The notes below the pieces were generated by a model that had not been told where the DNA came from, ran no database searches, and was given only the letters and a program-made list of their open reading frames with translations. DNA of 64,000 nucleotides, taken from Gemmatimonadota bacterium (GTDB taxonomy: Bacteria; Gemmatimonadota; Gemmatimonadetes; Gemmatimonadales; GWC2-71-9). Each line of letters opens with the position of its first letter. Position 1 is the first letter of the stretch. Both the position numbers and the translations under genes were made by a program. The DNA is taken from NCBI GenBank assembly GCA_016874005.1, contig VGVQ01000003.1, forward strand, positions 99,019 to 163,018. The letters run 5' to 3'. This document shows positions 3 to 8,954 of this stretch, piece after piece.

Positions 3-581
3 GCCATCCGGGCTCTCGACCTCCGCTTTGGGCAGGATGTCACCGACGTGCTGCGGCAGCTGTACGCGGTTCAGGAGATGACGGGTCAGAGCCAGCGACA
101 GCTCTCCATTCTGAAAGCCCAACTCGATGCCCGGGCCGAGGCGATGGATGCCCGACCAATTGCGACGCAGCCGGATTCGGCTGGGGTCACCCGCCCGGTG
201 GGGGGGCCATCGGCCGACCAGATGTTTCAGGGGGCCTTGGAGTTGCATCGTCGAGGGAGCCCGGCCACCGCTCGGCGGGCCTTCCAGGATTTTCTCCAGC
301 AGTACCCGGCTCACCCGTACGTGGCCGACGCCCTCCACTTTCTCGGCGAGACGTTCGAAGCAGCCACTCCGGACTCCGCGGTCGTCAGTTGGAACGCGGT
401 CGTGACCAGGTTTCCCCAGTCGCCACGGGCACCGGAATCGCTCTTCAAGATTGGCGTTCTCGCCTCGAAGCAGGGTGACAAGGCCGCCGCGAAGGCTGCC
501 TTCGACCGATTGATCAAGACCTACCCGAGGTCTGAGGCTGCCGAGCTGGCCCGGGAACGGCTCAAGGACCTGAACCCGTAG
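3..581 (+). CDS. Tol-Pal system protein YbgF/CpoB-like, TPR C-terminal domain (5' end cut by window)
   Basis: Frame is open to the window edge; C-terminal TPR pattern (MFQGALELHRRGSPATARRAFQDFLQQYPAHPYVADALHFLGETF) typical of YbgF. Confidence 0.75.
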   Translation, partial: AIRALDLRFGQDVTDVLRQLYAVQEMTGQSQRQLSILKAQLDARAEAMDARPIATQPDSAGVTRPVGGPSADQMFQGALELHRRGSPATARRAFQDFLQQYPAHPYVADALHFLGETFEAATPDSAVVSWNAVVTRFPQSPRAPESLFKIGVLASKQGDKAAAKAAFDRLIKTYPRSEAAELARERLKDLNP

Positions 582-588
582 CCGCGGC

Positions 589-3500
589 ATGGCGCGGTCC
601 ACTGGCGAGATGCCGTTCCTCGACCATCTCGAGGAACTTCGATCGAGGATCATCAAGGCACTCGTCGCCCTGATCGTTGGAATCGCGCTCGGCCTGTTTC
701 TGGTCGAACAATTCCGGCTGGTCGACATTTTGCAGGCGCCCATCCTCCCGCTCCTGGGCGGAAGGAAGCTCGCCATCCTGGCGCCCACCGATGCCTTCAT
801 GATCTTCCTGAAGCTGGGGTTCATCGGAGGGGTCGTCCTCGCGTCACCGGTCCTCATCTGGCAAGCCTGGGCGTTCCTGTCGCCGGCACTCTACGATCGA
901 GAGCGGAAGACCCTGGTCCCGGCCCTCTTCGTTGGGATGGCACTCTTTCTGGCCGGATCGATCGCCAGCTTCGTGTACATCGTTCCGCCGGCCCTGAAGG
1001 TGCTGCTCAGCTTCCAGTCAGGGTCGTTCGAGATGGCGATCACCTTCGAGAAGTACTTCAGTTTCGTGCTGCAGGTCGTCCTCGCGATGGGGCTGTCCGC
1101 CGAGCTGCCGCTCCTGATTGTGCTGCTGGCGATCCTCGGGATCGTCAACCCTCAGATGCTGAGTCGGTTCCGCCGCTACGCGGTGCTGGGGGCCTTCTTC
1201 GCGGGGGCGATGTTGTCGCCTGGCGGTGACGTCCTGACCATGCTGCTGATGACGGCGCCCCTCTTGGTGCTCTACGAGATCGGCTACCTCGGCGCCGTCG
1301 TGGTCCACCGCCGCCGGCTCCGGGCCTCGGCGGCGACCACAGCCCTGTTACTGCTGCTCGCCGCCATCCCGGTCCAGGGCCAGCGGCCCCCACCGCGGCC
1401 TCCTGGGCAGCCCGCCCGCCCGGCTCCGCAGGCGCAGCAGCCCGATACCGGCAGGGTGACCCTCGACGCCGCCAGCGCCAAACGGCTCGGAATCCCCACC
1501 GCCCCAAAACTGAGTTTCCCCGCCAACGACTCCATCATCGATCAACTGCTCGAGCTCGAAGGGTTCGAGATCACCCGGTACCGGTCCGATACGGCTCGGG
1601 TGGCCGCGATCGACCGGCAGGTGCAGCTCGATGGCAACGCGATGACCGAACGGGCGGGGTCGACGCTGGAGGCCCGGGCGATTTTCTACCGAGAAGGCGA
1701 CTGTCGGTTCGAGGCCGAGGGCGATCCCCGGCTGTTCCAGGGCGAAAACATCGTGGTTGGTCGGACCGTCAAGTTCGACACCTGCATCGAGCGTGGCTTG
1801 GTTCGCGAGGGTCGGACCACCTTCCCGCAGCAGGGCGCCAATTGGATCATCAGCGGTCAACTGGCGGTGGATTCCGCCGCCCGCCGGGTCTACGCCAGCG
1901 CCCGCGAGGTGACTAGCTGCGACCTGCCCGAGTCGCACTACCATTTCAGCGCCAAAGAACTGAAGTGGGTCTCCCAGTCGACCATGGTGGCGCGGCCGGC
2001 GGTGCTCTACATCCGGGATGTCCCGATCGCGTGGATTCCGTTTCTGTTCCAGGATACCAAGCGAGGCCGACGCTCGGGGATCCTGATACCCGAGTTTGGG
2101 TTCAACGACATCGTCCGGCCCTCAAGGTCGTTCAACCGAACGATTCGAAACCTCGGGTACTACTGGGCGCCAAACGACTACATCGACGTGCTCGGCCGGT
2201 TCGACTGGTTCTCGAACCGCTACCTGGAGTTCGGGCTGGAAGGGCAATATCGGTTCATCGACCGGTTCGCCCGGGGAGCCGTGAGTCTGTCGCGCAGCAA
2301 AGAGGTCAGTGGCGGGTCCAGCATGCGGCTGGTCTGGAATCACAGTCAGACCTTCGATGTCACTACCAAGCTGAACTGGAGCATCGATTACTCGACCAAC
2401 TCGTCGATCGTCCGTCGCAACGCCATCGATCCCCGGTTGACGACGCAGCAGATCCGCAGCTCCGGGACCTACTCCAAGCAGTTCGCCTGGGGCAATTTGT
2501 CGCTCGGCTTCAATCGGTCGCAGAACGTCAACGACGGGAGCGTGACTCAGACGCTGCCCTCACTCTCGATTTCGCCGAAGCCGTTCGACTTCGGGCCCAA
2601 CTTCACCTGGTCGCCCGACCTCAATTACAGCCGAGACCAATCCCTCAAGCAGCCAGCCGGTACGATCTTGATCCCCCGAGGTCCCGGCCAGTTCGACTCG
2701 CTCAAACTCACCGAGGCGCGCCAGACCCAGCGATTCTCGATGAATACCCCGCTTCGGCTCTGGGGCCTGCAATGGCAGAACTCGATCTCGCTCATCGACG
2801 TCGATTCGTCCGGGGTCCGATCGGAGCGAGTCCGGATCCCCGACGAAAGCACCCCGGACCCCACCGATTCGATTACGGTCGTGCGGACTCGGACCAGCGG
2901 CTTCGGGTCGGAGTTCGACTGGCAAACGAGCTTCAACCTGCCAATCCTGTTTCGGACCTCGTGGAAGCTGACCCCGTCCGTCGGGGTGACCAACACCACC
3001 TCCGGAGCCTTCGCGGTCCGAAACGAGCGGACCAACGGCCAGTTCGTCCGTCAGAGTAAGCGCCTTCAGTTCGGTCTTTCCCTCAACCCGACCTTCTACG
3101 GGTTCTTCGGGGGACTCGGGCCGTTGTCTCGGATCCGTCATACCATCCAGCCGAGCCTGACCTACTCCTACAGCCCCGCCAGGGCGGTGCCGCTCGAATA
3201 CGCCCGTGCCGTTGCCCGCCCCGGCGAACAGCTTCGGCTGACCAGTTTGCCGACCCAGTCGGTGTCGCTCACCTTGAACCAGAATTTCGAGGCGAAAACC
3301 CGTCGGCCGGCCGGCGACACCACCGACCTGCAGGTCCGGAAGATCAGGCTCCTCAGCATTTCGACGAGCCCGCTCAGTTACGACTTCGAGCAAGCCAAGG
3401 AGGTGGGCCGGACCGGCTGGACCACGAGTTCGATCAGCAACAGCGTGCTGAGCGACCTGGTGCCCGGCTTGAACCTCGCCTTCACCCATGACCTGTGGAT

Positions 3501-4077
3501 CGGGGCAGTCGGGTCCGACACGGCGCGGTTCAGTCCGTTTCTTTCGGGCGTCACGGCGAGCTTTTCCTTGACGGAGGGAACCTTCAGGTCGATCGGCCGA
3601 CTGCTGGGGCTCGCGAGCGCCGCACCGGCGGATGGACGTCCCCCGACCCAGCCGACCGCCCAGCCGCCGATACCGGGGCCGTTTGGCGACCTGCGCCGTG
3701 GCTCCGCATTCACCGCGAACCAGACCTTCAGTCGCGGGCAGCGCGGCTTCAACGCCAGCGTCAACCTCACGATCAATAGAAACCGACCGGTGCCGGGCCA
3801 GGTGGTCTCCCCGAACCGGAGCAACATCTCACTCAACACGAGCTTCGCGCCGACTCCGTTCTGGCAGGTCAATTGGACCACGCAGTACGACGCGGCCAAC
3901 AAGCAGTTCGAGGCCCAGCAGCTCAACCTCACCCGCGACCTTCACGACTGGCGGGCCACCTTCACCTTCCTGCGAAATCCCAACGGGAACTTCTCGTTTT
4001 CCTTCCTGATCAGCTTGATCGACCTGCCCGATCTCAAGTTCGACTACCGCCAGAGTACCATCCAGGATCGACGCTAG
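589..4077 (+). CDS. TatC (aa ~1-240) continuous in frame with LptD/OstA-like outer-membrane protein
   Basis: N-terminus PFLDHLEELRSRI plus six hydrophobic segments = TatC; after HRRRLRASAATTALLLLLAAIPVQGQ an OstA/LptD-like beta-barrel follows (CDLPESHYHFSAKELKW..., FWSN, aromatic alternating strands to C-terminus); no stop in between. Confidence 0.85.
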   Translation: MARSTGEMPFLDHLEELRSRIIKALVALIVGIALGLFLVEQFRLVDILQAPILPLLGGRKLAILAPTDAFMIFLKLGFIGGVVLASPVLIWQAWAFLSPALYDRERKTLVPALFVGMALFLAGSIASFVYIVPPALKVLLSFQSGSFEMAITFEKYFSFVLQVVLAMGLSAELPLLIVLLAILGIVNPQMLSRFRRYAVLGAFFAGAMLSPGGDVLTMLLMTAPLLVLYEIGYLGAVVVHRRRLRASAATTALLLLLAAIPVQGQRPPPRPPGQPARPAPQAQQPDTGRVTLDAASAKRLGIPTAPKLSFPANDSIIDQLLELEGFEITRYRSDTARVAAIDRQVQLDGNAMTERAGSTLEARAIFYREGDCRFEAEGDPRLFQGENIVVGRTVKFDTCIERGLVREGRTTFPQQGANWIISGQLAVDSAARRVYASAREVTSCDLPESHYHFSAKELKWVSQSTMVARPAVLYIRDVPIAWIPFLFQDTKRGRRSGILIPEFGFNDIVRPSRSFNRTIRNLGYYWAPNDYIDVLGRFDWFSNRYLEFGLEGQYRFIDRFARGAVSLSRSKEVSGGSSMRLVWNHSQTFDVTTKLNWSIDYSTNSSIVRRNAIDPRLTTQQIRSSGTYSKQFAWGNLSLGFNRSQNVNDGSVTQTLPSLSISPKPFDFGPNFTWSPDLNYSRDQSLKQPAGTILIPRGPGQFDSLKLTEARQTQRFSMNTPLRLWGLQWQNSISLIDVDSSGVRSERVRIPDESTPDPTDSITVVRTRTSGFGSEFDWQTSFNLPILFRTSWKLTPSVGVTNTTSGAFAVRNERTNGQFVRQSKRLQFGLSLNPTFYGFFGGLGPLSRIRHTIQPSLTYSYSPARAVPLEYARAVARPGEQLRLTSLPTQSVSLTLNQNFEAKTRRPAGDTTDLQVRKIRLLSISTSPLSYDFEQAKEVGRTGWTTSSISNSVLSDLVPGLNLAFTHDLWIGAVGSDTARFSPFLSGVTASFSLTEGTFRSIGRLLGLASAAPADGRPPTQPTAQPPIPGPFGDLRRGSAFTANQTFSRGQRGFNASVNLTINRNRPVPGQVVSPNRSNISLNTSFAPTPFWQVNWTTQYDAANKQFEAQQLNLTRDLHDWRATFTFLRNPNGNFSFSFLISLIDLPDLKFDYRQSTIQDRR

Positions 4078-4232: not shown

Positions 4233-5354
4233 ATGCGAAGACTGATCATCACGGCTGGTCTCGTCGTCGGTGGCTGCCAGGGTGACGACCTCATTGGAGT
4301 AGGCGGCTTTCTCGATCCGCCGACCGGGTTGAGCTACCAAGTCGAGGCGAGCGGAACGCCGGGACGACCGTCGGGTGTCGTGCTCCGCTGGTCCGGCGAC
4401 GACGATCCCGATCTCGAAGGCTGGAATGTCTACGGTCGAGACGGGACCAGCGCCCCCTGGACCCTCCGCGCCGCGACGACATCGAATAGCTATCACGACA
4501 ACGGCGAGCCGCAGCTGCAGTACTACGTTACGGCCTATGGCGCGGGGGCGCTCGAGAGCGCGCCGAGCCAGACCGTGACGGTCGACGAGCGGCTGGTTCT
4601 CGACAAACCGGCGACCTTGGCGAGCGTCACCTTGAACCGCGCCATTGCCCTGGTCTGGTCGGACAACTCCTACCGTGGGGACCCGGATGGATTCGGGCAC
4701 TACCGGGTGTACTCCACGAGCTACGACCTCGATCGCGATCTCTGCGGCAATACCTGGCACCTCGAAGGCACCACCGTGGCTCCGGAATTCAGGGTTGGGG
4801 CCCTCGTCAACGGCGTCTCGCGGTGTTTCGGTGTGTCGGCCGTGGCCGTCGAAGGGTTCGAGAGCCTCTGGTCGCCGCTGGTGGCCGACACGCCGAGACC
4901 CGACGCCCGGAACGTCGCGTTGACGGCTCGGGCGGTGTCAGATCAGACCGCCGGGTTCCGATTCTGGCGAGACCTCAACGGCAACGGCAGAGCGGAACCA
5001 GCGGAACTTGGCCTGGTCGGGTCGGGGTCGGCTTTGGACCTCGACTTCCGGCTGGAGCGGGACGGGGCGGGCCGGCTGCTCCTGGTCCCAGTCCGAACCG
5101 GCACGGCGGTTGTCGTCTATGGCAACCGGCCCGTCGGCGATTTGACCGACATCGACGTGGCGCCCCTGGGTGGTTACTCCCGTGCCCCGGTCGAGCCCGT
5201 CCCGGGCTGGGGCTACGTCTTCGAAATGGATGGGCCAGACCGGTTTGCCCGATACGGGGCCGTGCGGGTGAGTCACGTGGGGCGCGATCTGATCATCTTC
5301 GACTGGGCCTATCAAACCGACCCCGGGAACCCTGAGTTGATCACGATCCGGTAG
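4233..5354 (+). CDS. Lipoprotein with fibronectin type III-like region
   Basis: ATG at 4233, MRRLIITAGLVVGGC lipobox; FnIII-like WSGDDDPDLEGWNVYGRDG. Confidence 0.65.
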   Translation: MRRLIITAGLVVGGCQGDDLIGVGGFLDPPTGLSYQVEASGTPGRPSGVVLRWSGDDDPDLEGWNVYGRDGTSAPWTLRAATTSNSYHDNGEPQLQYYVTAYGAGALESAPSQTVTVDERLVLDKPATLASVTLNRAIALVWSDNSYRGDPDGFGHYRVYSTSYDLDRDLCGNTWHLEGTTVAPEFRVGALVNGVSRCFGVSAVAVEGFESLWSPLVADTPRPDARNVALTARAVSDQTAGFRFWRDLNGNGRAEPAELGLVGSGSALDLDFRLERDGAGRLLLVPVRTGTAVVVYGNRPVGDLTDIDVAPLGGYSRAPVEPVPGWGYVFEMDGPDRFARYGAVRVSHVGRDLIIFDWAYQTDPGNPELITIR

Positions 5355-8708: not shown

Positions 8709-8954
8709 ATGTTAGGCAACTTCGGGTTCTGGGAGATCATGGTCCTCGGCTTGGTCGTGCTGTTGGTGTTCGGGGCCAAGCGTTTGCCGGAAATCGGGTC
8801 GTCGTTGGGCAAGGGCATCCGGGAGTTCAAGAAGAGCTTCACCGAGACGCAGGACGCCATCACCAGCCCGCTCAACGATTCGACCACCCGGCAACTGGAC
8901 GCCTCGACCAGCCAACAGCCGACGACGACCGAACCGAAGCGGCTTTCGCAGTAG
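8709..8954 (+). CDS. tatA: Twin-arginine translocase TatA/TatE
   Basis: GFWEIMVLGLVVLLVFGAKRLPEIGSSLGKGIREFKKS; strong SD AGGAG upstream. Confidence 0.93.
   Translation: MLGNFGFWEIMVLGLVVLLVFGAKRLPEIGSSLGKGIREFKKSFTETQDAITSPLNDSTTRQLDASTSQQPTTTEPKRLSQ

Follow-up and report, generated by a model that had tools for sequence, protein, structure and literature searches.

How can the products of one reading frame end up in two different membranes? The 64,000-nucleotide stretch of DNA analysed here (the window) holds a single frame, running from ATG to TAG over 1162 codons (Table 1), in which, as an earlier note on this DNA had claimed, TatC runs without a stop into an LptD-like protein. We asked whether both halves are what they appear to be, whether the fusion is real, and how the frame is likely to be expressed.

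One frame, two envelope proteins

Both domains were matched. The Pfam TatC family (PF00902) covers residues 12-224 (E 3e-58, 197 bits against a cut-off of 25.1), and the TIGR00945 tatC match (187 against a cut-off of 132.7) indicates a full-length TatC domain; LptD_2 (PF19838) covers residues 467-664 (E 1.5e-44, 152.9 bits against a cut-off of 22.5). A profile built from relatives in the same family matched PDB chains of TatC as well as the LptD structures 7omm and 8h1r. The AlphaFold (AF2) model of the fused chain (mean pLDDT 76, pTM 0.53) begins with the TatC helical bundle, passes through a low-confidence stretch at 257-290, where pLDDT is lowest, and continues into a jelly roll, with its first strand at 329, and a barrel. 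When this model was used in Foldseek, LptDE structures came out on top (8h1s, E 1.3e-24; 4q35, E 2.8e-23), with moderate TM-scores, and the TatC half showed the six-helix fold of solved TatC (4hts, TMt 0.81; 4b4a, TMt 0.80). The LptD half, as modelled, has the fold of a jelly roll plus a large beta-barrel. Sequence and fold agree on the identities of the two halves, which are confirmed.

Table 1. Features of the tatC-lptD locus, in window coordinates.
Feature	Position	Strand	Basis or remark
Fused tatC-lptD ORF	589..4077	+	1162 aa plus stop TAG; frame opens with ATG; conserved ORF
TatC part, residues 1-235, TM1-TM6	589..1293	+	Pfam TatC 12-224; PDB 4hts/4b4a
Internal signal-peptide-like segment, residues 238-264, VVHRRRLRASAATTALLLLLAAIPVQG	1300..1380	+	Hydropathy; n/h/c layout kept in 78 fused genes
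In-frame GTG (V238), poor SD	1300..1302	+	Candidate internal start; position not conserved
Predicted signal peptidase I site between G264 and Q265	1378..1383	+	Site pattern in relatives
Pro/Gln-rich, mostly low-confidence linker, residues 265-328, before the LptD jelly roll	1381..1572	+	pLDDT
LptD: N-terminal jelly roll and beta-barrel, residues 329-1162	1573..4074	+	Domain, profile and structure matches

Compared with the TatC family (PF00902/TIGR00945), the protein has a complete six-helix TatC; this half, however, lacks a stop codon of its own and bears a C-terminal signal-peptide helix and LptD. Like the LptD family (PF19838; 7omm, 8h1r/8h1s), it has jelly roll and barrel, but many fused members have no lptD start codon of their own, and the signal peptide lies within a longer chain.

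The two halves are the sole TatC and the sole LptD detected in the genome, which also contains LptF/G genes and one signal peptidase I of the LepB type (PF10502). Beyond DUF4321 and polyprenyl synthetase genes, 4.6 kb downstream of tatC-lptD, comes a gene of the TatA/B family (window 8709-8954). Upstream, a TPR protein, CpoB/YbgF-like by appearance (window 48-581), ends 7 bases short of the tatC start; this spacing, together with the lack of a clear SD at tatC, suggests translational coupling. Downstream, an ORF at window 4233-5354 starts like a lipoprotein (MRRLIITAGLVVGGC) and matched nothing in Pfam.

Conservation and history of the fusion

The earlier note had proposed looking for the same architecture in related genomes, and had allowed that a stop might have been lost by sequencing error. 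Our sample of the family (f1, order Gemmatimonadales), whose members are bacteria of soil and water, comprised 103 genomes, 82 of them with both parts readable on one contig. The frame is uninterrupted in 76 of these 82, spanning 32 genera; the fused records include MAGs of many independent projects, and also CP070716, titled chromosome. Single-base indels can fuse neighbouring frames, and one relative (L075) does have a frame change inside a GGGGGC repeat. Recurrence of the fusion in 76 independent genomes, however, rules out both chance and sequencing error, and an assembly or sequencing error, or a recent chance stop loss, retains a negligible probability. Stops flagged inside some matches (G008, G028, G093 and others) lay outside the joint, and the ORFs there are fused.

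When matches were listed for 399 genomes of the class, those outside f1 included a stop-free fusion only in family f2, in a pair of related genomes (L087/L088). In other Gemmatimonadota families tatC and lptD are adjacent but separate, often with a GTGA/ATGA overlap or with one stop between them; in L030, L086, L089 and L092, a TAG directly precedes the GTG or ATG of lptD. Gene order in the overlapping pairs is identical to that of the fused gene, but here the two genes are distinct, TatC has a longer tail and lptD has a start codon; this arrangement is probably the ancestral one. A search of a plasmid collection returned nothing beyond distant TatC or LptD pieces.

In a tree of TatC and LptD, family f1 is monophyletic. 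A fused f1 ancestor needs 4 changes within the family, a split ancestor 6, and a model free of fission 12 gains. On this tree the f1 ancestor was fused; four fissions followed, one of which may be an artefact of a frameshift, and the neighbouring family gained a second fusion. The split members (L005, L029, L074/L077 and L075/L076) are nested in the tree: L005, with an ATGA overlap, sits inside the window's own genus, and L029 has a short overlap. The count of four fissions includes one less secure case, because L075 is possibly a fused gene whose frame is shifted by one base, either truly or as an artefact. In this genome (G087; about 1340-1400, reverse complement of the locus), and also in L148, the change falls in the GGGGGC repeat at the joint; it is possibly an assembly artefact or a slippage-prone on/off switch of lptD. 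In another genome (G009, contigs C20/C47; L193, L194) lptD has an ATG and a signal peptide of its own and stands by itself a short way behind another gene; tatC there is unlinked to lptD, looks different and resembles the tatC of family f2, possibly reflecting tatC replacement or contamination.

The fissions restore separate proteins, with a normal signal peptide on LptD. The covalent link, gained about once in f1 and lost several times, is thus tolerated rather than indispensable, and its history argues for two separately working products. The suggestion in the earlier note that a polyprotein ties Tat to LPS assembly found no support, as several relatives have re-separated the two genes and the link is dispensable.

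The joint between TatC and LptD

The joint (residues 238-265) contains HRRRLR, a hydrophobic peak of 17 residues (246-262, KD 2.04) and V-Q-G followed by Q at 262-265, in agreement with the basic n-region, hydrophobic core and plausible V-Q-G site described earlier. In all 78 fused genes TM6 gives way to a stretch rich in arginine, then to a hydrophobic core and a site resembling those of signal peptidase. Position -1 of this site is Ala in 71/78 and position -3 is Leu, Ala or Val in 72/78; a Q follows in 78/78, a count that is partly circular, since the search pattern for the site itself included the +1 Gln. In an alignment that was not guided by the site pattern (A2), Q265 was invariant and position 264, Ala in the relatives, nearly so. 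Substitutions at the joint between close pairs numbered 30, 25 and 95 at codon positions 1, 2 and 3, and the joint occurs in 24 different lengths with the frame kept in all, while the other frames often contain stops. The joint evolves as in-frame coding DNA.

These features point to an internal signal peptide of n/h/c layout with a signal peptidase I motif. Separate relatives have a longer TatC tail and an LptD with its own n-region; in the fused genes, the arginine-rich TatC tail has taken over the n-region role. TatC has six helices and both of its ends in the cytoplasm (PMC10197872), as the earlier note had held for the C-terminus, so the tail is correctly placed for this role.

Whether LptD has its own start codon could be judged from the span 16-34 codons before the cleavage site. 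Across the 78 fused genes this span contained 84 ATG, GTG or TTG codons, where the amino acids together with the codon usage of each gene predict 85.1. Such codons were absent from 25 of the genes (23.3 expected), including L002 and L003 of the window's own genus, and 18 lacked even CTG. By contrast, a signal peptide could be recognised in 47 separate lptD genes, and 45 of these had a start codon in the span; the two exceptions mean that longer signal peptides are slightly undercounted. Start codons at chance frequency, with none in 25/78, indicate that internal initiation is not under selection, and it is not a conserved mechanism in the fused genes. Scoring SDs of internal starts was dropped in favour of this test, as even the tatC starts in these genomes have weak SDs, which makes such scores uninformative.

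Expression of the fused gene

We consider it very likely that tatC-lptD is one gene for one polyprotein, in which an internal signal peptide exports LptD and a signal peptidase I cut frees it. Ribosomes would translate TatC, whose C-terminus lies in the cytoplasm after six helices, and the arginine-rich tail would double as the n-region of a signal peptide at residues about 240-264. The core of this peptide would insert as a seventh helix and thread the LptD part into the periplasm co-translationally; signal peptidase I would then cut between G264 and Q265. Mature LptD (Q265-1162) would thereby become available for assembly in the outer membrane, and TatC would keep a short additional helix at its C-terminus. 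Co-translational export, the cleavage itself and the fate of the leftover helix are the inferred parts of this scheme. The earlier note had imagined a self-processing polyprotein; the polyprotein with its internal signal peptide is well supported, but self-processing is unnecessary, since the genome encodes an ordinary signal peptidase I.

Alternatively, the frame could yield two proteins, TatC (or a TatC-LptD read-through) and an LptD begun at an internal codon. The earlier note had named the GTG at 1300 (V238), with no clear SD; the GTG is indeed present and its SD is poor (-1.7 kcal/mol). It is the only candidate start of this genome in the span, and its distance of 27 codons from the cleavage site corresponds to a normal signal-peptide length. 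Many fused relatives also have GTG or ATG in that region, and separate homologues initiate at an overlapping GTG or ATG. However, the position is not conserved, the joint has no more start codons than chance would give, and the SD scores of the candidates equal the background; besides, with no stop between the parts, TatC alone would never be released. We therefore regard independent initiation as an unlikely general explanation, although this GTG may serve as an extra LptD start in this one genome. Less likely still is an uncut fusion, one chain with its TatC part held in the inner membrane and its LptD barrel in the outer, forming a covalent trans-envelope tether. Between the signal-peptide core and the jelly roll lie about 65 residues, mostly of low confidence, which if extended would perhaps just span the periplasm, but a linker of like kind also occurs in separate LptDs, the cleavage-site pattern is conserved though no tether would require one, and the secondary fissions show that the link is dispensable. 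It is just as improbable that a chain left partly or wholly uncut provides a regulated pool of TatC with a covalent bridge over the periplasm to LptD, by which Tat export would be coupled to the assembly of LPS.

The proposed cleaved polyprotein resembles FbcH, the cytochrome b/c1 precursor of Bradyrhizobium japonicum and relatives, in which a polytopic inner-membrane protein is reportedly fused in frame to an exported protein via an internal signal sequence; this precursor is said to be processed into two proteins. Likewise, tatC-lptD joins a polytopic membrane protein in frame to an exported one with no conserved separate start. Cytochromes b and c1, however, are subunits of one complex, whereas TatC and LptD belong to different pathways and different membranes, and processing into two proteins belongs to FbcH, while for TatC-LptD it is predicted from the site pattern. 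The fbcH gene is listed as 'cytochrome b/c1 subunit' (PMC12456017). The literature searched contained no paper combining TatC, LptD, fusion and Gemmatimonad* and no report of a TatC-LptD pairing; in a survey of TatC diversity (PMC3827258) the words 'fusion' and 'fused' appear nowhere.

In these genomes, automatic annotation may label the fused gene tatC and so conceal lptD, in which case surveys can wrongly score LptD as absent. The fusion also poses the question of why the genes of two unrelated envelope machines stay joined. If the reading as an old polyprotein shared by the family is correct, TatC and LptD, each the only copy found, would be made in a fixed one-to-one ratio, and LptD export would depend on correct insertion of TatC; nature would then offer, in this gene, a case for testing how a membrane protein of several helices hands over to a cleavable signal peptide within one chain.
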